A stretch of 26,979 nt of DNA. It comes from a virus. Location: IMG/VR virus record IMGVR_UViG_3300015171_000026, positions 1 to 26,979 of that record; one strand, 5' to 3'. The notes under the pieces are model-generated. The model had not been told where the DNA came from and searched no databases. It saw nothing but the letters and a program-made list of their open reading frames with translations. The position numbers and the translations under genes are program-made. Below are positions 1,977 through 25,806 of this stretch, piece after piece (the first letter of the stretch is position 1; every line of letters starts with the position of its first letter).

Positions 1977-2258
1977 CTACGCTGACGGTTCATAGCAAAC
2001 GTCGATGATGTTACCTGCGGTTCCGAACAGGTATACGTTGTTCAGCAGGCAGCCGCGAGGGAAACTGAAGTCGCCCGTGACTGATCCTCCGCCAACGCCG
2101 ATTGAAATGCCGGAGGTTGCGGAGACCGTGGACCCACCCATGCGGAAAACGGCTGCGGCGTTGTCCTGCAAAACCAGCCATGAGGCGTATACGTTGGGCT
2201 GCCCTGCGGCGATGAGGGGAGTCTTACCAGCCCCGAGGGTTACTTGGAAATTGATCAT
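1977..2258 (-). CDS. Small structural-type protein, 93 aa, unknown function
   Basis: ATG at 2258 follows AGGAG with good spacing and overlaps the stop of the upstream 462-residue gene as ATGA, so the pair is translationally coupled. The product is Gly/Ser/Val-rich and without charge clusters, and ends in a hydrophobic strand-turn-strand (VYLFGTAGNIIDVCYEPSA) of the kind common in small phage head or tail proteins. No enzymatic motif is visible. A minor virion role is inferred from the position between neck genes and the large tail gene; I do not recognise a named family. Confidence 0.8.
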   Translation of the reverse strand: MINFQVTLGAGKTPLIAAGQPNVYASWLVLQDNAAAVFRMGGSTVSATSGISIGVGGGSVTGDFSFPRGCLLNNVYLFGTAGNIIDVCYEPSA

Positions 2259-3643
2259 GATTTCTCCTGTAGCGCAAATCTAGGCTCTGCTTGGTCTTCC
2301 TTGGAAATTGGCCTGCGAAGGTCCGTTGGGAAAATTCCAGATTCCTTCAGGTGGCGATTGGTTTCCATTGCGAATGAGATGAAGCGCTGGTGAAGGGCTA
2401 GGGATTCCTGAAACTCAGCCCCTCCCTCTTTGAACTGCGCCAGATGTTCCGCCTCATCAATGATGGCGTCCAGGACTTCGCGGGAGACTTGGATGAAGTC
2501 GGAGTCAGCAGTAAATACCGGCGCATTCGCAACCATCGAGAGCGTGACCGCCACAGACTCGCCTGCGGGGATGAGAGGGGAGACAGCAAAGAGGTCAATC
2601 CCTCCTCGGATGATTTGTGGCATGGCGTCAGGGTTCGACTGCCATTCATAGTCGTATTGGTCGGCTTCGTAGAAGGAGGGAGTATCCACTGGGACGTTGT
2701 TGATTCTAGCTTGCAACAACCAGGGCATCTCAGCCATCAGACGCACGCCTTCGGTGAAGCGTTGCTGGCAGTATTGCGCGCGCAGCAGGTCTTTCGATTC
2801 CGTCTCCTTGCTCAACATATCCGCCATCATTCCAAACTTCAAAACCCATGAGAAGTCGTTGGGGATGAGCAGAGGATCGGCGATGGGGATGGTGATGTTT
2901 CCGCCTGACAGAACACCGAGGCAATCGAGGGTATTGGGGACGTTCGGCTTGGCATCGAAGGTGATGTATTGCTGTGGAGAACCGAGAATATCCCAGCAGA
3001 GAGGGGTGCCGAAGAATTGCTCAAAGTCGTTGGTGAAATACTCGAAACTCATCGTGTCGTCGCGATAGAGGGTAACAGGGGGACCAAAGCCATCGGCAGG
3101 GACGTAGCGAATTCGACGCATGTCGAGAATAGATTGTGCCGTCGAGTCGGGAAGCTGGACGCGGTTGGTGCCGGGGAGGATTTCCAAGTTCGCGTCGAAC
3201 GGCCCCACGTTGCAATCGGCTATTTGAAGTATCTGGTCCCTGCGCCGCTGAAATCCATTGACGAAATCGGCGATGTTGAATTGGTTGGTGCCGGTCCAGC
3301 TACTTCCGGTAGGGGGTTCCAAGAGATGGTATTCAGCAATGGTGAAGACGTTGGAATCGGTGAGGGTCTGGTAGCGCGGGGATGTGGGGTTGTCTCCGAC
3401 GAGAGGATTGATGCCGTTGGCGGTTGATTGCCAAACCGGGAGAGAAGCGGGGTTGGTCTGGGTATAGGTGGTTGTCCAATCGACAATCCACTGCTGAGTT
3501 AGGCAGTTCCAAACCCGCACCGCCTCATTGAGGTAGTGATAAATCTCCCCCTTCGTCCATCGAACGTTCGAGACATCGTTGAGGCGCAGGGATACCTCCT
3601 GATTCGCCTGAAGCCACGTCTCGTTGCTAAATGTGGGCGACAC
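2255..3643 (-). CDS. Probable neck/adaptor or tail structural protein, 462 aa
   Basis: The start is GTG at 3643, directly after the TAA of the upstream 55-residue gene (TAAGTG) and preceded by AAGGGG. The N-terminus (RLNDVSNVRWTKGEIYHYLNEAVRVWN) looks like a helical adaptor: an Asp-Val-X-Asn-Val-X-Trp motif followed by a Tyr-X2-Glu-Ala-X-Arg helix, which I associate with phage proteins encoded next to head-tail connector genes. The middle is rich in Trp, Pro and Asn; residues 370-450 are helical and acidic. It lies between the lysine-rich protein cluster and the tail gene. A structural role at the neck is inferred, and no catalytic residues are visible. Confidence 0.75.
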   Translation of the reverse strand: MSPTFSNETWLQANQEVSLRLNDVSNVRWTKGEIYHYLNEAVRVWNCLTQQWIVDWTTTYTQTNPASLPVWQSTANGINPLVGDNPTSPRYQTLTDSNVFTIAEYHLLEPPTGSSWTGTNQFNIADFVNGFQRRRDQILQIADCNVGPFDANLEILPGTNRVQLPDSTAQSILDMRRIRYVPADGFGPPVTLYRDDTMSFEYFTNDFEQFFGTPLCWDILGSPQQYITFDAKPNVPNTLDCLGVLSGGNITIPIADPLLIPNDFSWVLKFGMMADMLSKETESKDLLRAQYCQQRFTEGVRLMAEMPWLLQARINNVPVDTPSFYEADQYDYEWQSNPDAMPQIIRGGIDLFAVSPLIPAGESVAVTLSMVANAPVFTADSDFIQVSREVLDAIIDEAEHLAQFKEGGAEFQESLALHQRFISFAMETNRHLKESGIFPTDLRRPISKEDQAEPRFALQEKS

Positions 3644-3811
3644 TTACCCCTTCTTCCTCTTTGCCCCGATGACCTTGGTTCCTCCTGCGAGCTTGAAGGG
3701 TGTGCCGGAGGGCTTCTTGATTTCCTTCGCTCCTGCGAGCTTGATGTCAGAGTTGGGGTTGTCTTTTTTGATGTGTGCGCAGTTACCGCCTTTTGATGTT
3801 GAATGTTTCAT
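3644..3811 (-). CDS. Lysine-rich small protein (KHST family), 55 aa
   Basis: This frame starts at ATG 3811 behind GAGAGGAAG and ends with TAA at 3644, immediately before the next GTG start. The ATG overlaps the TGA of the upstream 68-residue gene (ATGA). The protein begins MKHSTSKGG and ends GAKRKKG. It has 13 Lys and 1 Arg against 3 acidic residues and no hydrophobic core. Its N-terminus matches the 39-residue protein at 9503-9622 (MAKHSTEKNG), so the two are probably paralogues. It is too small and basic for an enzyme. A DNA-associated or virion-packaged role is inferred from charge and location. Confidence 0.8.
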   Translation of the reverse strand: MKHSTSKGGNCAHIKKDNPNSDIKLAGAKEIKKPSGTPFKLAGGTKVIGAKRKKG

Positions 3812-4014
3812 TTTCCACTTCCTCTCTTCTGTTTGGCTTCTTTCTTTCTCTGAGCAGAATCAATCTTGACCCGCTTTGGATCAGTCGAATGCTTGACGAC
3901 GTGGGTCTTCCCAGCAACGACAACATCCTTAGCCGTATCAGGAATGTCGTGAATATGTCGATAAGCGAGGTTCTTGCGATAGCCTTCCTTGCTGGCAAAG
4001 TGAAGGGTTGGCAT
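3808..4014 (-). CDS. Basic small protein, 68 aa
   Basis: ATG at 4014 directly follows the TAA of the upstream gene, and its TGA overlaps the next ATG. The product is His/Lys-rich: it starts MPTLHFASKEGYRKN, contains THVVKHSTDPKRVKIDS in the middle and ends in RKKEAKQKRGSGK. The central KHST tetrapeptide recurs at the N-termini of the 55- and 39-residue proteins. An overlapping alternative frame (3783-4037) breaks the exact tiling of neighbours and has a less gene-like composition, so it was not chosen. Function is unknown. Confidence 0.72.
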   Translation of the reverse strand: MPTLHFASKEGYRKNLAYRHIHDIPDTAKDVVVAGKTHVVKHSTDPKRVKIDSAQRKKEAKQKRGSGK

Positions 4015-4269
4015 TTAGTATCCACGCTTTCTACCAATGGATTTCCCCTCGTTCATGATGGGCTTCAGTTTCGCAGTAAACGGCTTCGATGCGGCGAGTC
4101 CCTTGGTCGAGTGACGAACAGAGAATATCTGAGCCTTCTTCAAAAGCGTCCCAGAGCCTTCAGGCGAGGCTCCTCCCTCGGGGAGATGTCCAAGGTCGTT
4201 CGACGACTTGAACGCGCCCTTGGTGGCGTCTGAGGTCACGCCAGAGGGGGTTGTATCAGGGAAGTTCAT
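4015..4269 (-). CDS. Basic small protein, 84 aa
   Basis: ATG at 4269 follows GAGGAAGAG and overlaps the TGA of the upstream 96-residue gene (ATGA); the gene ends TAA at 4015, one base before the next ATG. The first half is Gly/Ser/Thr-rich and probably disordered (PEGGASPEGSGT); the second half is basic and ends KSIGRKRGY. It fits the same short, basic-tailed group as its neighbours. No recognisable domain. Confidence 0.75.
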   Translation of the reverse strand: MNFPDTTPSGVTSDATKGAFKSSNDLGHLPEGGASPEGSGTLLKKAQIFSVRHSTKGLAASKPFTAKLKPIMNEGKSIGRKRGY

Positions 4270-4556
4270 CTCTTCCTCGGCATGGACTTAGTGGACTGGA
4301 CCTGAACCTTTGGCGCGACAGCAGGACGCGACTGAGCCTTGGTCTGGGTGGGGTGGATGAAAGACTTGTTGGCGTCCTGCACGGTCTTGTCGTCCGCCTG
4401 CTTATTCATGTCCTGAACGGCCTTGTCGTGGTCAGAGGGCTGCGCAGGCTTGTAGAAAGGCGTCGGAACCTTGCTCACAAGGTCGTTGGCCTTCTTGTAA
4501 ATCCCGCGAGCCATGTCCACTAGTCCAGAAGGTTCGTCGTCAAGTGGGTCGCCCAT
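4266..4556 (-). CDS. Basic-tailed small protein, 96 aa
   Basis: ATG at 4556 lies one base after the TGA of the 65-residue gene upstream and its own TGA overlaps the next start. The N-terminus is acidic (MGDPLDDEPSG); a short helical part follows (ARGIYKKANDLVSKV), then a Gln/Lys/Asp-rich low-complexity stretch with an imperfect KAVQDMNKQ / KTVQDANKS repeat, and finally a basic tail, STKSMPRKR. This is the longest member of the lysine-rich cluster. Function unknown; a structural or DNA-contacting role is inferred only from context. Confidence 0.78.
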   Translation of the reverse strand: MGDPLDDEPSGLVDMARGIYKKANDLVSKVPTPFYKPAQPSDHDKAVQDMNKQADDKTVQDANKSFIHPTQTKAQSRPAVAPKVQVQSTKSMPRKR

Positions 4557-4557
4557 G

Positions 4558-4755
4558 TCAGCCTTTCTTTCTCGGAGAGTCCTTGCTCATCGGGAACTTC
4601 GCCTGATTGGCAACACGCCCCGTGGATTTCGTGGCGTACTGCTTGGCCGACCCGACTTTGTGAATCATCGACTTTCCGGGGTTGCCGTTCAGGACACTGC
4701 CCTCCACAGAACGGTCAATAGGTTCGGACGTGGGGACTACTTTTACACTCTGCAT
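4558..4755 (-). CDS. Lysine-rich small protein with SPRKK tail, 65 aa
   Basis: ATG at 4755 is preceded by AGAGG with seven bases of spacing and follows the TAG of the 53-residue gene by three bases. The protein is polar throughout, with no predicted hydrophobic core, and ends PMSKDSPRKKG. The Ser-Pro-Arg-Lys-Lys end is the same tetrad type as in the 39- and 53-residue proteins and resembles the S/T-P-K/R-K/R minor-groove binding motif of histone tails. Confidence 0.78.
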   Translation of the reverse strand: MQSVKVVPTSEPIDRSVEGSVLNGNPGKSMIHKVGSAKQYATKSTGRVANQAKFPMSKDSPRKKG

Positions 4756-4758
4756 TGG

Positions 4759-4920
4759 CTACCTCTTCCGCTTCGGAGACTTCTTTTCCGCCGACTTTAC
4801 TTCATGCTTCATGGACTTCTTCTCGCCCTTGATTTTGTGCGCCATCCCTTCCGCTTTCTTCAGGAAGGATGAGGGGTGAGATTCAGCTTCGGATTTCGGT
4901 GTCTCTTCAGATTCTTTCAT
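4759..4920 (-). CDS. Highly charged small protein with SPKRKR tail, 53 aa
   Basis: The frame runs from ATG 4920 (AAAGGA upstream, seven bases spacing) to TAG at 4759. It begins MKESEETPKSEAESHPSSF and ends EKKSPKRKR. The N-terminus is acidic and the C-terminal two thirds strongly basic and helical (FLKKAEGMAHKIKGEKKS). It fills exactly the gap between two neighbouring small genes, which supports it in spite of its length. Function unknown. Confidence 0.78.
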   Translation of the reverse strand: MKESEETPKSEAESHPSSFLKKAEGMAHKIKGEKKSMKHEVKSAEKKSPKRKR

Positions 4921-4924
4921 TGGA

Positions 4925-5101
4925 TTATCCTTTCTTTCGCGAGATCGACTTCATATTCTGGGCAAATACTGCTTCCTTTTCCTTCACTCCCCCCGCTTTC
5001 TTTCCAGCAGCGATTTTCTTAGGGGTAGCCTTACCAAACTTTCCGAGGGTTCCTTTGGCCTTCATCTTATCGGTGGCCTTTTGTATCCAGTGATTTGCCA
5101 T
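4925..5101 (-). CDS. Lysine-rich HWIQKA-type small protein, 58 aa
   Basis: ATG at 5101 shares one base with the TGA of the 337-residue gene upstream (TGATG) and follows GAGGA with seven bases of spacing; TAA at 4925. It starts MANHWIQKATDKMKAKGTLG and ends NMKSISRKKG, with 15 Lys and 1 Arg against 3 acidic residues. A Trp-Ile-X-Lys-Ala start followed by K-x-A/G-K repeats is a pattern I associate with small proteins found in many phage genomes, usually without assigned function. Probably virion-associated (inference). Confidence 0.82.
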   Translation of the reverse strand: MANHWIQKATDKMKAKGTLGKFGKATPKKIAAGKKAGGVKEKEAVFAQNMKSISRKKG

Positions 5102-6114
5102 CACAAATTCCTCGATGCCACAGTACCCGTGGCGGGGTTGAAGGTGGCGACGATGCCAATGTTGGTAAAGCGGTTCATTTGAACGTAATACGCATCGTAA
5201 ATATCCCTGTCAATGCTTCGAATCTCATGCAATTGATCTTTGTATTCCGCGTTCGCAGATTGCATCAGGAAACGGTAGTCAGCGCCTTGGCCCCTTGGAT
5301 TCGCCTCGTTCTTGTTTGCCTCGGCCCATTCATATGCTTTTACCCTGCCCAAAGTCTTGACCAAATGCTCAGTCATGGGCGCAGGGACAGCGGATTGGCC
5401 GGGGATGTCGGTCAGGTCAGGTCCACCCCATGAGTAGCCCACCGTGTAGGTGTAGACGGCTTGGGGTTGGGGGTAGAGTTCGTAGACTGCATAGCCGGGG
5501 GTAGCGCTTCCCGGTCGGTTATCCACCCCATGCGGAACCACATTGCCGGGGTTAGAGAATATCTGCCGCTGAGGGTCCGCGATGTTTATCTTCTCCCACT
5601 GCCCGCGCCGATTATCCACGTCGAGATGGATGACATTGCGAACGTCCATGAAGAATTCCCATGCTTGAAAGTTCTGGACTGGCGCAACGATGTAAGGCTG
5701 GTAGATGGAGTAACCCATGCCGGGGCCGGAGTTGATGTCGATCCAGTTACGATCCAAGGTCAGAATGGCTTGCGCAGGGTTGGTGAAGTCGGCAGCGATG
5801 ATGTTGTAGATGGTCGATGCACCGATGCGGAACTGGCGTTGGGTCAGGAGAGAGTAGGGGTAAAGAGAAGATGTGGCTGCCCACGCTGCCGAGGCAATGG
5901 CGTCCCCCGTCACGGTGTTTGCGCCGAGGGTAGTTGTAGCAGACCCCGCGTTCATCACAGGCGGGGTGGCATAGCCGGTGTTCCCGACTTGGAAGGACCA
6001 GCCTTTAAGGTTGCGTATGTCAACCCACGCGTTGCGAAGATGGGTGCGAGCGAGAGCGGCGGAGTAATTGGGAACACAGCCCCTTTGCTCGCCAATCATT
6101 GAACTCAAACTCAT
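5101..6114 (-). CDS. Probable neck/head-completion protein, 337 aa
   Basis: ATG at 6114 follows a GGGGGATGGG stretch. The protein has a helical start (NYSAALARTHLRNAWVDIR), beta-rich Gly/Ala/Thr sequence in the middle, and a helical, highly charged C-terminal part (VKTLGRVKAYEWAEANKNE) ending in ATFNPATGTVASRNL. The architecture, helices bracketing a beta region, and the position just after the capsid and decoration genes suggest a connector or tail-tube-associated structural protein. I do not recognise a named family. It is preceded by a terminator-like hairpin (6125-6155), so its expression may depend on read-through. Confidence 0.75.
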   Translation of the reverse strand: MSLSSMIGEQRGCVPNYSAALARTHLRNAWVDIRNLKGWSFQVGNTGYATPPVMNAGSATTTLGANTVTGDAIASAAWAATSSLYPYSLLTQRQFRIGASTIYNIIAADFTNPAQAILTLDRNWIDINSGPGMGYSIYQPYIVAPVQNFQAWEFFMDVRNVIHLDVDNRRGQWEKINIADPQRQIFSNPGNVVPHGVDNRPGSATPGYAVYELYPQPQAVYTYTVGYSWGGPDLTDIPGQSAVPAPMTEHLVKTLGRVKAYEWAEANKNEANPRGQGADYRFLMQSANAEYKDQLHEIRSIDRDIYDAYYVQMNRFTNIGIVATFNPATGTVASRNL

Positions 6115-7215: not shown

Positions 7216-8394
7216 TTATCCGTTAAAACCGTAGCCTTGGCCGCTCTCGCGAGGGGCGGGGCTGTAGACGTTCAGCGCGAGGTTAATCAACAGCGCATCG
7301 TTCGTGTTGTTGTTGTAAACCTCGTTCTGGCGACGACCGAAGAGGAAATCCGGGTTGTCGGTGGGGCGATACTTCCAAGCCGCGCCAGTCAGGCTCCAGA
7401 TTGTCTCGCCGACTGTGATGACGGTGGAGGCAGGTAACTGGCTGGGGCTGTTGGTGCCGGTGGCCGTGGCGGCGGAGGTGAAGGTGGAGGTAAGGTTCGA
7501 TGTCCCGATGTAGTTGGTCGGAAACGCCTTGCCCCATGCCGCGCCAGGGGTCAGGATGTCGTCGTAAATCGTGGTTCCCATGAACGAGATGCCTTCAACG
7601 TCGGGGACCGAGGACAACGCCTTCATCGTCCAGTTGGTGGTGAATTGTTGCTGGGCCTGAAGGCAGGCGAGGATGTATTTCCAGCCGTTCGGGCCGGTGA
7701 TGGTGATTTCCGGTGTACGCCCATCGCAGAACTGACGCTGGTTGACCAGGAAGCCGATGAGGGCGCGAACCGAGATAGCTTGAGCTGTTCCGTCCGAGTT
7801 GCCGAAGAATACCGGGATGGAGTTGATCGTGTTCGACACCGCGCCGTTGCGAACCTGCGCGCCGTAGTTCACGTACACATCGCCATTCCATGAGTTGTTC
7901 AGGCCGTCGTTCAGAGCCTCGGCCATTCCATTGACGTTGTTGGTGCGATTGTTGGCAATCTGACCCGCGATAGCAGCCTGACCGTGCCAGTAGCAATCGA
8001 CTTCGACGTTGGTGGAGATGGCAGCGACGCCGTTGCGGAAGTACAAGTCAGTGAGCAGGATGCGGGCGTTCGGCCCCTTGTTTTGCACAGACAGGGAGAA
8101 CGTCTCCAGCATATCGCGGGAGGTATAGAGGCGTGGTGTAAACGCCAAGTCCGCGAGCTGCTGGTGATGCTCGATGTCGAAGTTTGAGCCGGGGGCCGCT
8201 GCACCCGCATCGGGCGAACCCATGATGAAGGGTTCACGCATGAGCACGCCGCCGCCAAAGGGGTCAATCGCCCCAATGGCCCTCATGTGCTGCTGATAGG
8301 CGGTTTTGACAAAGAAGTTGTCATAGGCTGCATCCGCAAGCATGTCGTCGAGGGTACTAGCCTGAAGGTCGCCGTTGTACGTGGGATCAGCCAT
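7216..8394 (-). CDS. Major capsid protein, 392 aa
   Basis: ATG at 8394 follows AAGGAG nine bases upstream. Length, composition and position directly after the scaffold-like gene are those of an HK97-fold major capsid protein. It starts with an acidic, helical N-arm (residues 1-40), continues with FTPRLYTSRDMLETFSLSVQ, and has a long stretch rich in Asn (residues 140-200) typical of capsid A-domain loops. The only lysines are scattered and no protease motif is present. It has no transmembrane or signal sequence. The fold is inferred; identification as the main capsid gene rests mostly on gene order (TerL, portal, scaffold, this gene, decoration). Confidence 0.85.
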   Translation of the reverse strand: MADPTYNGDLQASTLDDMLADAAYDNFFVKTAYQQHMRAIGAIDPFGGGVLMREPFIMGSPDAGAAAPGSNFDIEHHQQLADLAFTPRLYTSRDMLETFSLSVQNKGPNARILLTDLYFRNGVAAISTNVEVDCYWHGQAAIAGQIANNRTNNVNGMAEALNDGLNNSWNGDVYVNYGAQVRNGAVSNTINSIPVFFGNSDGTAQAISVRALIGFLVNQRQFCDGRTPEITITGPNGWKYILACLQAQQQFTTNWTMKALSSVPDVEGISFMGTTIYDDILTPGAAWGKAFPTNYIGTSNLTSTFTSAATATGTNSPSQLPASTVITVGETIWSLTGAAWKYRPTDNPDFLFGRRQNEVYNNNTNDALLINLALNVYSPAPRESGQGYGFNG

Positions 8395-8420: not shown

Positions 8421-9221
8421 TTAGTTCACCAAATTCGAGTATTTCTCCAGCCGCTGCTGAGTCGCCTTTTCGCGCCCTGCGGCTGTCTGCCAAAGTTGTT
8501 TGCGGCCTTCGTCCTGCCGTACCGCGTCCCATTTCGAGGAGCGGGGATTTACGGTCTCGGGGTTGACGCCGTTGGACTTCTGCCATTCGGCCTTCGCTTC
8601 ACTGAGCTTGGTCGCAGCGTAGTCGTCGAGTTTCTTCTGCTCTGCCGCTGCGGAGACCTTGGAGGCCAAACCATCGTGGTCATACTTGCGAGCGACGTAG
8701 GAGCGAAGGTTTTCCTGTGGGCGCTTGTTGCGCTCAAAGTCCTGATATTCGGTTTCGAGGTCCAGTTCGTCGCCGGTCAGTTTGCGATGGCGGTTCGAGA
8801 GGGAGACAAGGGCCATGTTGGTCTTGGCAATGTCCATCGTCCTCTCATCAAAGGTCTTGGAGTCGATTCCAGCAGGGATTTCCACTTTGGGGGTCACGGG
8901 AGCAGCGCTCGCCTCCAGATAGGCGTCGGGGATGTCGTATCCGGATTCCTTCAGGGATTTCATGTGCGTTTCAAGCGCGGAGAGCTTGGCTTGGGTGCGG
9001 GCAACCTTCTCGTCGGCAGCGCGGACGTAGGGGACCACCTGAGTTTCATTCCAGGTCTTCAGATTGGTCTCAATCTCCTGCGCTTTCATCAGCGCAGTCT
9101 TCCCCTGCTCGGCTTCGGTGATGAACGACTCCAAAAGGGAGGCGTACTCAGGCTTGTTAATCAGGTCGTCTACCTGCTGGTCATTCAAGCCGCGTGCTTT
9201 CAGAATCGCTTTGGTATCCAT
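8421..9221 (-). CDS. Scaffolding protein, 266 aa
   Basis: ATG at 9221 follows AAGGAG. The protein is almost entirely helical and highly charged, with coiled-coil heptads around residues 35-105 (KAQEIETNLKTWNETQ; ARTQAKLSALETHMKS) and a basic, Glu/Lys/Gln-rich C-terminus (RKQLWQTAAGREKATQQRL). This composition, its size and its place between the portal and major capsid genes match phage scaffolding proteins, which assemble inside the procapsid and leave before packaging. No Ser protease motif is seen, so there is no sign of a fused prohead protease. Confidence 0.82.
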   Translation of the reverse strand: MDTKAILKARGLNDQQVDDLINKPEYASLLESFITEAEQGKTALMKAQEIETNLKTWNETQVVPYVRAADEKVARTQAKLSALETHMKSLKESGYDIPDAYLEASAAPVTPKVEIPAGIDSKTFDERTMDIAKTNMALVSLSNRHRKLTGDELDLETEYQDFERNKRPQENLRSYVARKYDHDGLASKVSAAAEQKKLDDYAATKLSEAKAEWQKSNGVNPETVNPRSSKWDAVRQDEGRKQLWQTAAGREKATQQRLEKYSNLVN

Positions 9222-9999: not shown

Positions 10000-12108
10000 C
10001 TAAGATTCGGTGATAACTGCCCTTGGCCCGGATGCTGAGGCTTTTGTCTCCATATGGGGTGGCTTCTGACCGCTTGGAGGTCTACCCGGAGCGCCCTTGC
10101 TTCCACCAATCCCGTTGGGGAGCGGCGGTGCGGATGGACCTTGAGCGACCAGCGCCGTCTCCAACTCCTTCATCTTCACCGCAAATTCCAGCTTGATTTG
10201 CTGCTCTGATTGCCACTTTTCGAGGACCGTATTCCCGTCGAGATGGCCCCAGTTCGGCACATCGGCAGCATTCATCACGGTTTCAGAGTCGATTACCGCG
10301 CCGGAACGCTGCATTTGGATGAGCATCAGTTTGCGTCCGGTCTGGACTACTCCATGCAATTCTCCGGGGGCGATGGTCGCGTGAATAGCGGAGCAGAAGT
10401 TCTGCGTCCTCTGCATTCTGGTGTAGATTGACTTTCCATTGGCTGCGTCCTCGTCGGGCATGTGGCTTGGGACCAAGGATGCAGGGTCGAGGTCAAAGAC
10501 TTCACGGGATACGCCATCTGCTCCGACGTATTGCATGATGCGTCCAGTTGGGTAGTATTGGAGGACGTTCGACAAGCACATCATCATCATTTCCGACACA
10601 GGCTCGTTGCAGGAGTTGGAGATGTCCTTGACGATGGGACCGGCTTCTTCCAACGCTTTCAGGAGAGCGTCGTCTGCGCCGGAGACTTTGGCTTTGGCAA
10701 GATTGTCCATCGCGTTATTGCCAAGGAGGTAGTCTTCCAGTTTCTCCAGCTTTTCGAGGTACGCAAAGGCCCATTCAGGAATGGACATCAACTCTTCGGG
10801 CAGGGCGGTGCGGATGACGGTTTCCCCGATAGCCCCATCGACTCCGAGGCGGCCTCTCTCCTCATAGGGGTCAAACTGCTCCATTGTCTTGCGGTTGAGA
10901 CCCGCGTTCTTGTCGTAGAGAAAGGAAGGGTCAAAGCGTTGCTTGGCCGTTTGGTCGAGGCCCCGCATGAAGGCTTGTCTTGTTTGACCCAATGAGTCGA
11001 TGTCTTCCATCAGAGAGTAGCCCGGTTCCCAGGGCCATTCGTCGGCAGAGATCCTTACCAAAGGGTGCATCCCATGCCAGTCCCAGAAGGGTCCGTCATA
11101 AATAGGTCTCTTCATCCCGGTCTGGGAGATGAAGAGGCGCAGGTTGGGGTAGAGGTAGCAGTCTTCTTCAGCGGCCTTGCGAGTCTCGCGAACCATCGCG
11201 CCAGTTTTGGAGCGGGTCATGTTGCCGGTGGGGATCATCTGTCCAATGAAAGGAACGACATAGGATTCAAGCGCCCCCGGTTCCCCCATTGGTTTCGGCT
11301 GCTTGGATTCGTTCATGGTCAAATCGCGGACGGTGGTGTAGCGAAACTCCATCATCTGCTCGGTCCAATTCCCGCCCTGGGATTGACCAGCAGAGGTTCG
11401 CATGTCGTTGCGGAAACGCTCGGCGAGAGCAATGCGGTCCTTAGAGATATTGCCGCTGTAGCGTCGGCGCGCAATGGGCTTCAGATCAGCTTGAAACTTG
11501 GGGAACTTGGCATGACCCTCGTAAATAGGCATGAAGAGGATGCGGGTCCATGCGTAAGCCCCTTGGACGTTGTTATCGTCGGGAAGTTGGAAAGGGAGAC
11601 AATCTTGGCTACTGAATACGTCAAAGTCGATCCGTCGGGCAGAACGGGCTGACATTCGTAGATTGCGGTAAACGGGTGACATGTAGGAGTATCCACCCAC
11701 CCCCATCCATTGAACGGCGCGCTTGAACTTTCCAGGGAATTTAGATTCAAAGTACACCGCTTTCCAGACCTTGTTCAGCATGGAGAGGAAGGATTGGTAG
11801 GCAGGGTTGTCACTTGAATAGGCGTCGATGGTACGGATGTCGGAGATATTCGCAATTACTTCTCGCAACGCCCTCTTCTCGCGGGGAACTTTCAAATCTG
11901 AACGTTGCTGATTAGGTCTGTCTGCGACTCGACCAGAGATAAGGGAAATGCCTCGGGGAAGGTCGCGGGAGGATGTCAGGGAGGCGTTGAACTGTTCCCC
12001 CACACTGACGACCTGTTGAAGCCAATCCTGCCGTGCTGCCTGGTTATCCTTGCCTTCATTTGGAGGCGGTTGCCATTGGGTTAGTCCGGTTTCCCTGCGT
12101 GGTGGCAC
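10000..12108 (-). CDS. Portal protein, 702 aa
   Basis: The start is GTG at 12108, sharing one base with the TAG of the gene upstream (TAGTG) and preceded by AGGGGTGAG. Position between TerL and scaffold and a length of about 700 residues fit a portal, the dodecameric ring through which DNA enters the head. Visible features include a charged N-terminal wing, a conserved-looking WMGVGGYSYMSPVYRNLR segment (about 150-167), FMPIYEGHAKFPKF, a DWHGMHPLVRISADEWPWEPGYS loop (about 330), long amphipathic helices near 440-500 and 640-665, and a Pro/Gly/Lys-rich disordered C-terminus. The size is similar to P22-type portals; a podovirus-like virion is an inference. Confidence 0.85.
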   Translation of the reverse strand: MPPRRETGLTQWQPPPNEGKDNQAARQDWLQQVVSVGEQFNASLTSSRDLPRGISLISGRVADRPNQQRSDLKVPREKRALREVIANISDIRTIDAYSSDNPAYQSFLSMLNKVWKAVYFESKFPGKFKRAVQWMGVGGYSYMSPVYRNLRMSARSARRIDFDVFSSQDCLPFQLPDDNNVQGAYAWTRILFMPIYEGHAKFPKFQADLKPIARRRYSGNISKDRIALAERFRNDMRTSAGQSQGGNWTEQMMEFRYTTVRDLTMNESKQPKPMGEPGALESYVVPFIGQMIPTGNMTRSKTGAMVRETRKAAEEDCYLYPNLRLFISQTGMKRPIYDGPFWDWHGMHPLVRISADEWPWEPGYSLMEDIDSLGQTRQAFMRGLDQTAKQRFDPSFLYDKNAGLNRKTMEQFDPYEERGRLGVDGAIGETVIRTALPEELMSIPEWAFAYLEKLEKLEDYLLGNNAMDNLAKAKVSGADDALLKALEEAGPIVKDISNSCNEPVSEMMMMCLSNVLQYYPTGRIMQYVGADGVSREVFDLDPASLVPSHMPDEDAANGKSIYTRMQRTQNFCSAIHATIAPGELHGVVQTGRKLMLIQMQRSGAVIDSETVMNAADVPNWGHLDGNTVLEKWQSEQQIKLEFAVKMKELETALVAQGPSAPPLPNGIGGSKGAPGRPPSGQKPPHMETKASASGPRAVITES

Positions 12109-12614
12109 TATCTCACCCCTCTAACCAACTGATGAAGAGGATTTATGTCTTCATCCCTGAGTCCTGCGTGTTTTCCATTGGCGCGATGGCGAATGGTTTC
12201 AGCGTCATACTTCTCGATCTCAAGAGACGCCCTGCTCAAGTCTGGCTCACTAGCAAGCAACTTGTAAAGCAGTTCATCTTTGGATTCTAAGTTACGGAGA
12301 GTCATTCGGGTAGCATATTCGTCGGCAGCGGAGATGCAACCCTTCGCAAGTCGGAGGCGGCAATTGTTTTTCAACGATTCCCTTTTCTCCCGATAACGGA
12401 TATGCTCTTCGACTTTCATGGACCTGAATTTCGCAAACTCCTGCGCAGCCATTCGACGGGAGAAATTCTCAATCTCAGAGATGGTCCTGCATTCCACGCG
12501 ATGCCAGCCGGGGAATGGTTTCATCTTCGTATCGGGGGCGAGCATCAAGGTTCCGCCCGCATCAACCCAATACACCACGATTTCCTTTTCGCTGATTTGT
12601 CCTCGGGCGGTCAT
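12108..12614 (-). CDS. Unknown protein between TerL and portal, 168 aa
   Basis: ATG at 12614 overlaps the TGA of TerL (ATGA). The N-terminal 45 residues look beta-rich (KEIVVYWVDAGGTLMLAPD, then PGWHRVECRT); the rest is helical and strongly charged (EIENFSRRMAAQEFAKFRSM), with a coiled-coil-like middle. Small helical proteins at this spot are common in phages and often unassigned. No enzyme signature is seen; it could help packaging or portal assembly. Confidence 0.8.
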   Translation of the reverse strand: MTARGQISEKEIVVYWVDAGGTLMLAPDTKMKPFPGWHRVECRTISEIENFSRRMAAQEFAKFRSMKVEEHIRYREKRESLKNNCRLRLAKGCISAADEYATRMTLRNLESKDELLYKLLASEPDLSRASLEIEKYDAETIRHRANGKHAGLRDEDINPLHQLVRGVR

Positions 12615-14764
12615 GCGCTCTCCCCATAAAGCTCAAAAAATCTCTCCCCATCCGTGTTCACAATCGTTGGCCCCTTCCACTCAGCAGTATTCAGTTCCCA
12701 TTCCACTTCCCCGGTTGGCTTCTGGCACCGCTGATGTTCGCGTTCCATCATGGAGTCGAGGTCGTGGTTGGTGAAATAGGCCATTGCGATTCCGAAGAGT
12801 CGGTCATCATGTTTGCCGCGAGCGTGGTCGGCGCGGGTCTTGCCACCTTCCGTGACTCGCTGCTCGTGGCCTTCCATTTCCGCAAGGAGCCAGCGGGAAT
12901 TGACCTTGATCCAGCCGTTATCTACTGCGTACTTATATGCCGAAAGGAGCATAGGCCGGGACCATTCATTCGTGAACCATCCCTCGCGGGGGTTGATAGA
13001 AGGCCGGGGCCGCAAAGTCTTCTTGTCATACATCCTGAAGATATGATGATTCTTGAATCCATACAACTTCATTGCGTGGTAGACAGAATCGCCATACTTT
13101 CGCTTCTGCTCGATGATGATGCGAGGCGTCTCCCCTTCTTCATAATGTTGGCCGTACCAAGCAGCAATAGCAGTGGCCCACGCGGCGATTTCCACATTGT
13201 CGATGTCGTCGGAGGCGAATTCAGCAACCTGGATGTCGGGGAAACCAGCGTAGCCAGTTTTCACAACCTCGATGGCTGTGCGGTCACCGCCAACGCCCGT
13301 GCCGGGGTCAATGCCGATTGAGTAATGCTCGCCCTTCCTGGGGCGTTCATAGACAATCAGGCGCTTCAGGGGGTCGAACTTGGGGTCTTCCACATCCCCC
13401 GTCATCGGCATCAGCATCCATTCGAGGGGAATGGAATTGGGGGTTGTCCATTGGATGACGAGCCTTGAGCGGGAGTAATCAACTTCTATGGGAGCAGGAT
13501 CATGGCGTTCCTTGATACCGGAGCCAAGGATGCCAAAAGTATCAACCGTCTTCTCTCTCTTCTTGTTAATCTCCCCGATAGTCTCCATTCCATACACTGA
13601 GTCGTGCTCGCCTATCAGGGCCTCAAAGTCGTCGCAGGGCATCTGACGGGACCATGACTTTTCCATCCGGCGCATTCGAGAGTCTTCATAGTTGAATTGC
13701 CAGTACCACATTTGAACATCAGGAAGCCGCCAGTTCTTGCCGAGGATGCGATTCAGCATCTCGGTAGACTTGACGTAGAGTTCGCACTTGTCCGCCATCG
13801 CCTTGACTTCGCGGGTCTGGTCGCGTCTCCAGCCTGCGGGAAAGGGGAATTTCTGAATCCAGTTTTTGGTCGGATAGAGTTCAGGAGTCATGAACCACGG
13901 GAGAAAGAGAGGAAGCATCCTCGCGCGTCCCTGCCAGTATTTCTCCTTGTTCGCGCGCCACTGGTCAGCCCACCATCCGGTGTTGCCTTCGCCAGTGCTT
14001 TCGAGCACCATCAGAGTGTCCGGGGTGGTCGGGACGGCTTTGAATAGACCTTCTTCAATCTGTTCAATGGGATTGGTATATTGCGAGACTTCTGAGAGAT
14101 GGATTTTATTGGGTGTGGTGCCTTGGCCGATTCCGCCCCTCATTGCGCCGTGCTGAATGACGATCATCGTTCCAATGTGGCTGAATTGGAGCAGGGCGCG
14201 GCCACTACGCTTGTCGCGGGTCTGGGTTGGGGATAACCACCACGGAATGTGCTCCAAAGCCCCGTACATCATTTCCATCATGACCTGCGTCTTCTGGTCA
14301 TCAGCCGAACCAATGGATGCGCGGGTGCCGGGGACCATCAGGGATGAGTGGGTTATCAACCCCTCGGCGAGGGTGGAGATTCCCTGCTTACGCGCTTTGA
14401 GGCATTGAATGTCCTGCGATACTCCGAGGTCTTCAAGTTCCTGCAAGACGTTAAAGAAAGCTCGCTGCCCTGAGCGGAAAGCGAAGTGTTGGATGTCGGT
14501 TTCTGTCAGCCAGAAGTAGCGGGTAAGAAAGTATTCGGCGCTGAGAGCTGCCAATGCTCTTTCATTCTGGATGAAACGGTGCATCGCAGGAGTCAGCAGG
14601 GCGTCGTCGAAGTAGGAGCCGCCAGTTTTGGGGTGAATCTTTTCGAGCTTCTTCAGTCCCGAGTTGAAGCGGTCCACTTCATCGACACCATGGGGGATGA
14701 GACCCCAGCCGTACTTCTTCTTGAAGCGGTCGCATTTCTCAAGGACTTTTTGCTCGGAATACAT
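12611..14764 (-). CDS. terL: Terminase large subunit (ATPase and nuclease), 717 aa
   Basis: This is the packaging motor that cuts concatemeric DNA and pumps it through the portal. An ATPase domain fills about residues 60-290: Walker A-like KARKQGIST at 123-131, Walker B IHLSEVSQY at 221-229 and the coupling motif LESTGEGN at about 254-261. The nuclease domain follows with IGIDPGTGVGGDRTAIEVV (first catalytic Asp), IIIEQKRKYGD and the C-terminal KHDDRLFGIAMAY. The order and length are normal for a TerL. ATG at 14764 overlaps the TAA of the small-terminase-like gene. No truncation is visible. Confidence 0.95.
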   Translation of the reverse strand: MYSEQKVLEKCDRFKKKYGWGLIPHGVDEVDRFNSGLKKLEKIHPKTGGSYFDDALLTPAMHRFIQNERALAALSAEYFLTRYFWLTETDIQHFAFRSGQRAFFNVLQELEDLGVSQDIQCLKARKQGISTLAEGLITHSSLMVPGTRASIGSADDQKTQVMMEMMYGALEHIPWWLSPTQTRDKRSGRALLQFSHIGTMIVIQHGAMRGGIGQGTTPNKIHLSEVSQYTNPIEQIEEGLFKAVPTTPDTLMVLESTGEGNTGWWADQWRANKEKYWQGRARMLPLFLPWFMTPELYPTKNWIQKFPFPAGWRRDQTREVKAMADKCELYVKSTEMLNRILGKNWRLPDVQMWYWQFNYEDSRMRRMEKSWSRQMPCDDFEALIGEHDSVYGMETIGEINKKREKTVDTFGILGSGIKERHDPAPIEVDYSRSRLVIQWTTPNSIPLEWMLMPMTGDVEDPKFDPLKRLIVYERPRKGEHYSIGIDPGTGVGGDRTAIEVVKTGYAGFPDIQVAEFASDDIDNVEIAAWATAIAAWYGQHYEEGETPRIIIEQKRKYGDSVYHAMKLYGFKNHHIFRMYDKKTLRPRPSINPREGWFTNEWSRPMLLSAYKYAVDNGWIKVNSRWLLAEMEGHEQRVTEGGKTRADHARGKHDDRLFGIAMAYFTNHDLDSMMEREHQRCQKPTGEVEWELNTAEWKGPTIVNTDGERFFELYGESA

Positions 14765-16067: not shown

Positions 16068-16724
16068 CTAACTAATACGAGCAAATGTTCCATGAAATTT
16101 AGGGAGAGCCGCAGCCCGCGCTTCGATTAGCGCCTCCAAAGAGGTTGATCTACGTCTCCAAACACGTTTACCCCCTGCGCAGATAACTGCACAGTATCCA
16201 TACTTGTACTTAAAAATCCCCTTAATTCCCAACTTGTTATTGGAGTATGTTCTAGAATTCCATCTATTCTCTGCACGAGTGGCAATCCGAAGATTTTTCC
16301 GACGGTTGTCAAGTCCATCACCAACCTGAACATGATCAATCTCTGCCCCGTCTCCACACTTAGCACCCACAATCTCACGGTGCATGAAAATAGTTCCCTG
16401 CTTTCCGTTCTCAACAGAGTGACGAACAGCATAGTGTGTTTTTGCCGTAGGATTCCAGCGAGATACCCAATAAAACTGACTCAGGTAAGCATAATCACAT
16501 TCATCCACAATAACGTACAGTCCTTTATCAATAGAGATCAGACGACAATAGACGCCATCAATCTTGAACCCACGTGCATCGCATACCTGATTGGTTTTTC
16601 GATGTCCATGAGCCTGATTTACCCACTTCCTATATCGACCCCTAACTGCCCCGTCACGAACGCAGGTGTATTTCCACCTCGCAGTCGCTTGTCCACAACC
16701 ACATTCGCAAATTCCCTCAGCCAT
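16068..16724 (-). CDS. HNH-AP2 homing endonuclease, about 218 aa
   Basis: This is a free-standing homing-type nuclease. The N-terminus carries a Cys cluster (ICECGCGQAT); the HNH core is MHREIVGAKCGD followed by EIDHVQVGDGLDNRRKNLR and ATRAENRWN; the C-terminal part (NNKLGIKGIFKYKYGYCAV) resembles an AP2 DNA-binding domain. ATG 16724 is chosen because AAGGA lies eight bases upstream; ATG 16733 in the same frame has no spacing from AAAGG. The gene overlaps the upstream HTH gene by eight bases, and its codon use is richer in A/T than the neighbours. Such genes spread by cutting phage lacking them. Confident family call; target site unknown. Confidence 0.9.
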   Translation of the reverse strand: MAEGICECGCGQATARWKYTCVRDGAVRGRYRKWVNQAHGHRKTNQVCDARGFKIDGVYCRLISIDKGLYVIVDECDYAYLSQFYWVSRWNPTAKTHYAVRHSVENGKQGTIFMHREIVGAKCGDGAEIDHVQVGDGLDNRRKNLRIATRAENRWNSRTYSNNKLGIKGIFKYKYGYCAVICAGGKRVWRRRSTSLEALIEARAAALPKFHGTFARIS

Positions 16725-17184
16725 TTTGAGCATCCTTTTGTGATTTCAGCAGGTTATCGAGGTCGGTGAAGGGGTTATCGGCACGAAAGGCGCTTCCTTT
16801 GTTGGTTTCCACCCAGATTCGCAGTTTCTCCATCAGCAATGGGTCTTTGGTGCTCCTTCTCTGCCTTCCATGCTCAATTGCTGCGATGGCAACGATGGAA
16901 GTATCGAATTTCTCTGCCAGTTGAGGCTGGGTAAGCAGTTTTCTGATACGGGTGTGCCGGATTTCCTCCCCAAAGGCTCCAAGTTCAGGAGTGAGAGGGG
17001 GTTTGGTGCTCTTTCCAGCCAGCCTCGCCAGCACTTCCGCTCTTGGTTTCCAGGGCCTCTGCCGCAGAATCTTCTGAGAATCAGAGAGCTTGGTCGATCT
17101 CCTGCAACGCGGGCATTTGTGGGGGCGATTTGGAGGTGGAGCGAGAAGATAATTGCAGAACGGACATTTATCGGGAGCCTTCAT
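16717..17184 (-). CDS. Zinc-ribbon plus HTH (XRE-type) regulator, 155 aa
   Basis: ATG at 17184 follows GGGGAGAA. The N-terminus is a zinc-ribbon-like module, CPFCNYLLAPP then CPRCRRSTKL (Cys8, Cys11, Cys24, Cys27). From about residue 75 comes a helix-turn-helix of the XRE/Cro type: GEEIRHTRIRKLLTQPQLAEKF then DTSIVAIAAIEHGRQR. It probably binds DNA as a phage regulator or late-gene factor. The combination of zinc ribbon and XRE HTH in a structural operon is unusual. Target unknown; the palindrome at 21,814-21,848 is an obvious candidate to test. Confidence 0.8.
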   Translation of the reverse strand: MKAPDKCPFCNYLLAPPPNRPHKCPRCRRSTKLSDSQKILRQRPWKPRAEVLARLAGKSTKPPLTPELGAFGEEIRHTRIRKLLTQPQLAEKFDTSIVAIAAIEHGRQRRSTKDPLLMEKLRIWVETNKGSAFRADNPFTDLDNLLKSQKDAQNG

Positions 17185-25420: not shown

Positions 25421-25586
25421 TGACTCGCCTGAGTCCATTTGTGATCGTAACGGCGAAGTGGTTCTTGGGCTATGTCGAGTATGCGGAGCTGGAGAAATTG
25501 AGCTAGATGAGCGTTGCGATGTTAGACAAAGGCGCTTGGATCTTGGAATAGGCTGGAAATGGTTGAACGCAAAAAGGGAGGGTTGA
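25380..25586 (+). CDS. Cys-rich small protein, 68 aa
   Basis: ATG 25380 follows AAGGAG with seven bases spacing; the earlier ATG at 25362 has no site. The reading MRKPTHILYKTTDDDSPESI leads to a Cys cluster (ICDRN, LCRVCGAG, RCDVR) that may bind zinc. Several unassigned phage proteins have this build. The gene ends TGA at 25586, four bases before the second CCCC-protein gene. Confidence 0.72.
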   Translation: MRKPTHILYKTTDDDSPESICDRNGEVVLGLCRVCGAGEIELDERCDVRQRRLDLGIGWKWLNAKREG

Positions 25587-25590
25587 AGGG

Positions 25591-25806
25591 ATGAAAATCA
25601 GGAGATTAACCTGTTGCTGCTGCGGTGAATCGTTTCAAGGCAGGCAGTTTCACAATCAGGATACCGGGTTCGGCATGGGTCCATGCTGCGCCGATTGGGT
25701 GCTGAATCGCAGGCCATTCGGTCACGATCCTATGACATTGGAAGAGTTCGAGCGGACCTATGGCAAGCGGGGAGTCAATTTCATAGTCGAGGAGGTTACG
25801 GCATGA
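25591..25806 (+). CDS. Cys-rich small protein, copy B, 71 aa
   Basis: 61 of 71 residues match copy A at 23913; the ten changes are S/T, E/P, R/K, K/R, F/V, A/I, G/E, Q/E, S/T and Q/A. Many nucleotide differences are silent, which suggests selection to keep the protein. The site GGAGGG-x-GAAGGG precedes ATG 25591. The CCCCGESF and CCADWVLNRRPFGHD parts are the same. The stop overlaps the next start (ATGA). Confidence 0.8.
   Translation: MKIRRLTCCCCGESFQGRQFHNQDTGFGMGPCCADWVLNRRPFGHDPMTLEEFERTYGKRGVNFIVEEVTA

Follow-up and report, generated by a model that had tools for sequence, protein, structure and literature searches.

Tiny basic proteins in the late module of an uncultured phage end in similar C-terminal tails that may act as a docking tag

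The window analysed here is a 26,979-nucleotide fragment of an uncultured virus (IMG/VR record IMGVR_UViG_3300015171_000026), whose source is an uncultured, podovirus-like soil phage with a probable host in the Acidobacteriota. All late genes of the window are on the minus strand, where they follow the order terminase, portal, a 74-aa gene, S8, an 86-aa gene, a 266-aa gene and the MCP, then two small structural-type genes, gp337, the cassette of seven tiny genes S1 to S7, gp462 and further late genes (Table 1). The 266-aa gene has no family match, and gp337 has no match in the PDB. Neither flank of the cassette carries a basic tail: gp337 ends in VASRNL, and gp462, whose homologues are structural proteins in Tunturi_1 and Tunturi_2, is acidic (pI 4.5, net charge -27). 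The MCP is also acidic, with a pI of 4.7.

Table 1. Late-module features of the window (coordinates are positions in the 26,979-nt window).
Feature	Coordinates	Strand	Remarks
Terminase large subunit	12611..14764	-	PHROG terminase matches, E 4e-4
Portal protein	10000..12108	-	Relatives 60-80% identical; annotated Tunturi_1 portal 32% identical
S8, 39 aa	9503..9622	-	N-terminus MAKHSTEK, core LKIHGGFK; tail SPRKK
266-aa gene, probable scaffold	8421..9221	-	Upstream of MCP; assigned by position only
MCP	7216..8394	-	Relatives 71-92% identical; annotated Tunturi_1 major head protein 30% identical
gp337	5101..6114	-	Upstream flank of cassette; Tunturi_1 homologue annotated tail protein
S1, 58 aa	4925..5101	-	WIQ-type small basic protein; tail ISRKKG (SISRKKG)
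S2, 53 aa	4759..4920	-	Tail SPKRKR
S3, 65 aa	4558..4755	-	Tail SPRKKG
S4, 96 aa	4266..4556	-	Tail SMPRKR
S5, 84 aa	4015..4269	-	Contains RHST; tail GRKRGY
S6, 68 aa	3808..4014	-	Founder of a widespread small family; tail KRGSGK
S7, 55 aa	3644..3811	-	N-terminus MKHSTSK; tail KRKKG
gp462	2255..3643	-	Downstream flank of cassette; weak PHROG_399 (structural protein)

The eight tiny lysine-rich ORFs (39-96 aa) and their tails are as the first-pass annotation described them, as is the tight packing of the cassette, with junctions that range from -4 nt (overlap) to +4 nt (gap). The ATG of S1 at 5101 overlaps the stop of the 337-aa gene, and short ATGA/TGATG overlaps of this kind join gp337 to S1, S4 to S5 and S6 to S7 in the window and in relatives, a chain that suggests translational coupling through the cassette. 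S8 stands apart, between the portal gene and the 86-aa gene. The eight proteins are strongly basic (pI 9.4-10.6, K+R 15-30%); hydrophobic residues (I/L/M/F/W/V/C) make up 13-22% of them, so that the earlier description of several as nearly free of such residues was too strong. Basic residues are concentrated at the C-terminus, where the last five positions hold 25 K+R in total against 9.5 expected from composition-preserving shuffles of each protein (0/20,000 shuffles), and a triple K/R run falls within the last seven residues of seven of the eight proteins (0.43 expected from such shuffles). The tails are thus not a by-product of composition.

A second shared element, [KR]HST, is found in half of the proteins (S5, S6, S7 and S8), a count that none of 3000 shuffles attained, with the comparison made over 4-mers of four distinct residues. 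Three of these cases had been seen before, and the fourth, RHST in S5, had been missed. In S6 the element is part of a conserved VKHS strand, and outside the S6 family it is rarely seen except in S5, S7 and S8 of the window group. When the bodies are compared with one another (28 pairs), only S4-S5, through their N-terminal 22 residues, and S7-S8, through KHSTxKxG, are clearly above shuffles. The idea of a small paralogous family therefore holds for these two pairs and fails for the others; the bodies are mostly unrelated and do not form one such family.

Conserved neighbours of the type whose absence would have spoken against the first-pass annotation are present in related phages. Six IMG/VR relatives (L001-L006), with MCPs 71-92% identical, carry the module. 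In L001 and L006 the stretch from gp337 to gp462 has S1, S3, S4, S5, S6 and S7 in the same order (S1 identity 81% and 72%, respectively). L002-L005 retain, of S1-S7, S6 alone, by itself or with one or two further small ORFs, and S6 is accordingly present in all six. S1 has distant relatives in L021, L040, L059 and L084 and none in a collection of 50,697 phage records; S2 is missing in L001, with weak relatives in L041 and L057; homologues of S4 occur in L001 and L006, and those of S5 in the same two phages end in GRKRF. Homologues of S8 occupy the same slot, between portal and 86-aa gene, in L002, L003, L004, L006 and the L001 contig, and in our scan are confined to this close group. Searches of Pfam and PHROGs gave nothing significant for any of S1-S8. 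In comparisons of the window, L001 and L006, pN/pS is 0.11-0.26 for S1 and S6 and 0.27-0.63 for S3, S4, S5 and S7, with the MCP as yardstick at 0.12-0.20. S1-S8 are genuine genes, and S1 and S6 are under strong purifying selection.

ORFs that by eye are HNH-like (homing-endonuclease-like) lie in or near the late module of the window (16068-16733), L006 (15332-15805) and L002 (7643-8311); the one in L006 sits between S5 and S6 and leaves the tags unbroken. In L001 the gp337 gene (3164-4399) matches in two parts, 3164-3478 and 3707-4399, separated by some 230 nt, which resembles an insertion or intron.

S6 is widespread. An alignment search found it at 74 IMG/VR loci, and also on two MAG contigs, whose labels are Candidatus Acidiferrales and Patescibacteria. 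Its constant body is HFxSxEAYRKxxAYRHIHGI...VVVxGKxHKVKHS, for which a confident AlphaFold model predicts a strand-helix-hairpin-helix arrangement (pLDDT 87) without a fold match in Foldseek or VIA-align. There are no matches to S6 in Pfam, PHROGs or the PDB and none among 50,697 cultured-phage records, and S6 is thus the founder of an undescribed family. For phages that bear S6, no proteomic data were found. A small protein with the motif YPMPDxxHA (phrog_16160, weak DUF6582) often lies beside S6 or in its late module (L027 6932-7162, L013 3564-3767, L014 5576-5791, L085 7220-7474, Tunturi_1 25539-25742); its body belongs to a different family from that of S6.

Small genes often hitch-hike in phage operons, and the tiny genes could accordingly be accessory, non-virion genes that have settled in the late operon and serve lysis, anti-defence or take-over of the host, their tails being incidental. 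The variable membership of the cassette, with S2 lost from L001 and only S6 of S1-S7 found in L002-L005, fits such an origin. Against it, S6 stays in the late modules of very different phages, where its neighbours are, depending on the phage, gp462-like genes, terminase and a P22-like portal, an endolysin, or tail and neck genes. We regard accessory genes of this kind as highly improbable.

The first-pass annotation read the tails as the SPKK minor-groove motif of histone tails. Lysine-rich bodies with SPKK-like tails would then bind packaged DNA and neutralise charge in the head, as in histone-like condensation, with which both the basic composition of the proteins and the position of their genes in the virion module agree. 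The tetrad S-P-[KR]-[KR] is indeed present in three of the eight (S2, S3 and S8), but it differs from the motif of histone H1 and H2B tails in being unrepeated within a protein and unconserved in homologues: the S-P tails are replaced in relatives by PMRKKG and VARKKD (the S3 homologues of L001 and L006, respectively), PARKRD, AQRKR and AERKK. Moreover, S6 is predicted to be a small folded domain and not a disordered histone tail, and elsewhere its family ends in ..SAFFGE or SDTxAFVAG, the former being aromatic and non-basic, so that it cannot be a minor-groove motif. The SPKK argument thus fails on conservation, while histone-like DNA binding by the lysine-rich bodies is possible; as an account of the tails, we consider condensation unlikely.

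The tails might instead have their cause in the DNA. If the last codons of each gene must hold AGGAAG or AAAGG to supply the following gene with a Shine-Dalgarno sequence, they will be read as R, K and G, and the tails would be functionless. The sequence directly upstream of each next start is purine-rich, and AGA/AGG account for 28 of 43 tail arginine codons (65%) compared with 316 of 1227 (26%) in long genes (p 1e-7), so that the tails do double as the Shine-Dalgarno of the following gene. However, where the gap to the next gene is at most 12 nt, 103 long genes show no K/R enrichment (0.089 vs 0.077, z 1.0), tiny genes with gaps of 13-30 nt keep theirs, tags are present in L053 and L058 with hundreds of bases between them and the following gene, and in FFGE tails the peptide is unchanged although GGAG is gone (GGCGAA). 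The Shine-Dalgarno sequence as sole cause of the tails is thus refuted, and functionless tails are very unlikely; we accept that it contributes to the choice of codons. An origin of the tails by recent duplication of local DNA, or by recombination at junctions, was likewise rejected, as identical tail residues have identical codons in 114 of 239 cases, against 110.6 expected from codon usage, indicating that the tails are not recent DNA copies.

Across S6-bearing phages, the tail of S6 resembles those of its small neighbours in the same phage. With genes on the relatives called by our own simple caller, and with permutations that treat phages as independent of each other and ignore kinship, the mean score of the S6 tail against own-phage small-neighbour tails is 3.97, compared with 1.11 +/- 0.50 against those of other phages (0/2000 permutations). 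The match persists when permuting within K/R classes (0/1000); if the FFGE and window groups are left out, it is equalled in 3/1000 or fewer. Large genes show no such effect (-1.44 vs -1.52) and internal segments only a small one (-0.63 vs -1.24 +/- 0.43).

The shared strings are often specific. In L027, L034 and L035, three or four genes of the S6 locus, among them the PHROG_16160/DUF6582-like gene that neighbours S6 in several phages, end in an [AQP]F[FY]GE-type (SAFFGE-type) string with differing codons, an ending found on no other ORF in the read stretches of these three genomes (G001-G003). Six small late genes spread over 27 kb of G018 end in KKRV[SA]xK-like strings (0.24 expected), L059 has the tails AAKRYGK and SSKRYGK, and L044, L047 and L113 have tails of the KRSSRRx and GKRTSKRA types. 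No neighbour of S6 with a matching tail was found in L005, L013, L014, L016, L084 and L085. A module GGKVxKTGxAxVHKGExV also recurs in small late proteins, each with a basic or phage-specific tail (L001 5685-6050, L002 13268-13612, L010 2805-3065, G018 67152-67418, L138 6155-6436); the L001 protein has a weak match to a tape-measure PHROG.

When every small gene was taken from a separately drawn set of 48 non-redundant phages with gp462, some of which also bear S6, tail sharing was not significant (mean -1.09 vs null -1.43, 54/400). The tag is thus not a general rule and is tied to S6 or basic cassettes. The tag of the window is a simple one of few residues, and some of the resemblance among tails there comes from basicness alone.

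Such tails could also arise by generic stabilisation, in which disordered tiny proteins acquire charged ends that resist C-terminal proteases, or by lineage bias, likeness within a phage reflecting its composition. Tiny proteins are generally richer in K/R at their ends than long ones, and the null result in gp462-bearing phages also speaks for this. It accounts poorly for own-phage matching that survives K/R stratification, for the small or absent effect in internal segments and large genes, and for the recurrence of specific strings such as KRYGK, SAFFGE and KKRVSxK, and we think it unlikely. Tails follow the phage and bodies do not, and the tails are kept at the peptide level.

The match between the S6 tail and its small neighbours, conservation at the peptide level, purifying selection and the place in the virion module together lead us to a tentative reading, plausible though somewhat short of probable, in which the C-terminal tails are a shared docking tag that recruits the tiny proteins to a single partner, in the virion or in assembly. 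In many S6-bearing phages several unrelated tiny proteins have the same few residues at their ends ([S/A/P]-RK[KR]-[G/R] in the window), with which they would bind a common partner while the particle is assembled. This would most likely be an acidic surface on proteins of the capsid, scaffold or neck, and the tiny proteins would so be carried into or onto the particle; the last codons would at the same time act as the Shine-Dalgarno of the next gene. That the proteins are in the virion, which partner they have and what their bodies do are points that we infer, and the acidic MCP and gp462 are candidate partners in the window. Of the two ideas in the first-pass annotation, a tail that serves as a capsid-entry tag is the better fit, being shared within a phage and different between phages, with the capsid as a putative destination.

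A short sequence common to otherwise unrelated head proteins is also known from the T4 internal proteins IPI, IPII, IPIII and Alt, in which an N-terminal sequence of about 10 residues carries almost any protein attached to it into the head (PMC7697877). The docking tag would act as this sequence does from the other end of the protein, being C-terminal, only 4-8 residues long and different from phage to phage. At the N-terminus, only S7 and S8 have KHST in common. In those virion-module genes that we examined, we recognised neither a prohead protease nor a site for processing by a protease. Encapsulin cargo-loading peptides, which are short, often C-terminal and direct cargo to an HK97-fold shell, are similar in being short C-terminal peptides. 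Here, in contrast, the operon has no encapsulin shell gene and instead encodes the terminase, portal and MCP of a tailed phage, the tag is on several tiny proteins and not on enzymes, and shell binding is putative. T7 gp6.7, gp7.3 and other small podoviral virion proteins are similar to S1-S8 as very small products encoded in the head/tail region, and we know of no shared tail among them. The cargo protein resolved in crAss001 is held via internal segments of a large protein and not by a shared short tag. We found no described case of shared C-terminal tags on phage virion proteins in the literature.

The nearest cultured relatives are Tunturi 1 and 2, podoviruses of Tunturiibacter (PMC11924767), which share the module at 25-33% identity; mass spectrometry is not mentioned in the paper that describes them (PMC11924767). 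As a positional counterpart of the cassette they have four packed genes (33-67 aa) upstream of the gp462 homologue, from which an opposite-strand HNH gene parts them. Three of these have basic ends, and a strongly shared tag is absent. A small basic gene also fills the S8 slot, ORF5 being the positional counterpart of S8 in Tunturi_1. The two phages offer a practical test system for the docking tag.

In its broader form, which is conceivable rather than probable, many uncultured tailed phages would encode unrelated tiny proteins, S6 being constant among them, that share a phage-specific C-terminal address, with a receptor in the virion or assembly machinery that co-evolves with it. Such an address would be a modular counterpart of the T4 capsid-targeting sequence, fast-evolving and swapped between genes. 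S6 gives a name and a fold prediction to a conserved late-module family absent from every catalogue searched. If the docking tag is right, it would provide a simple rule to spot small particle proteins missed by gene callers and proteomics, as well as a portable, phage-specific address peptide that is a candidate for loading reporters into phage heads, and the choice of tiny phage proteins for the particle would become a testable question.
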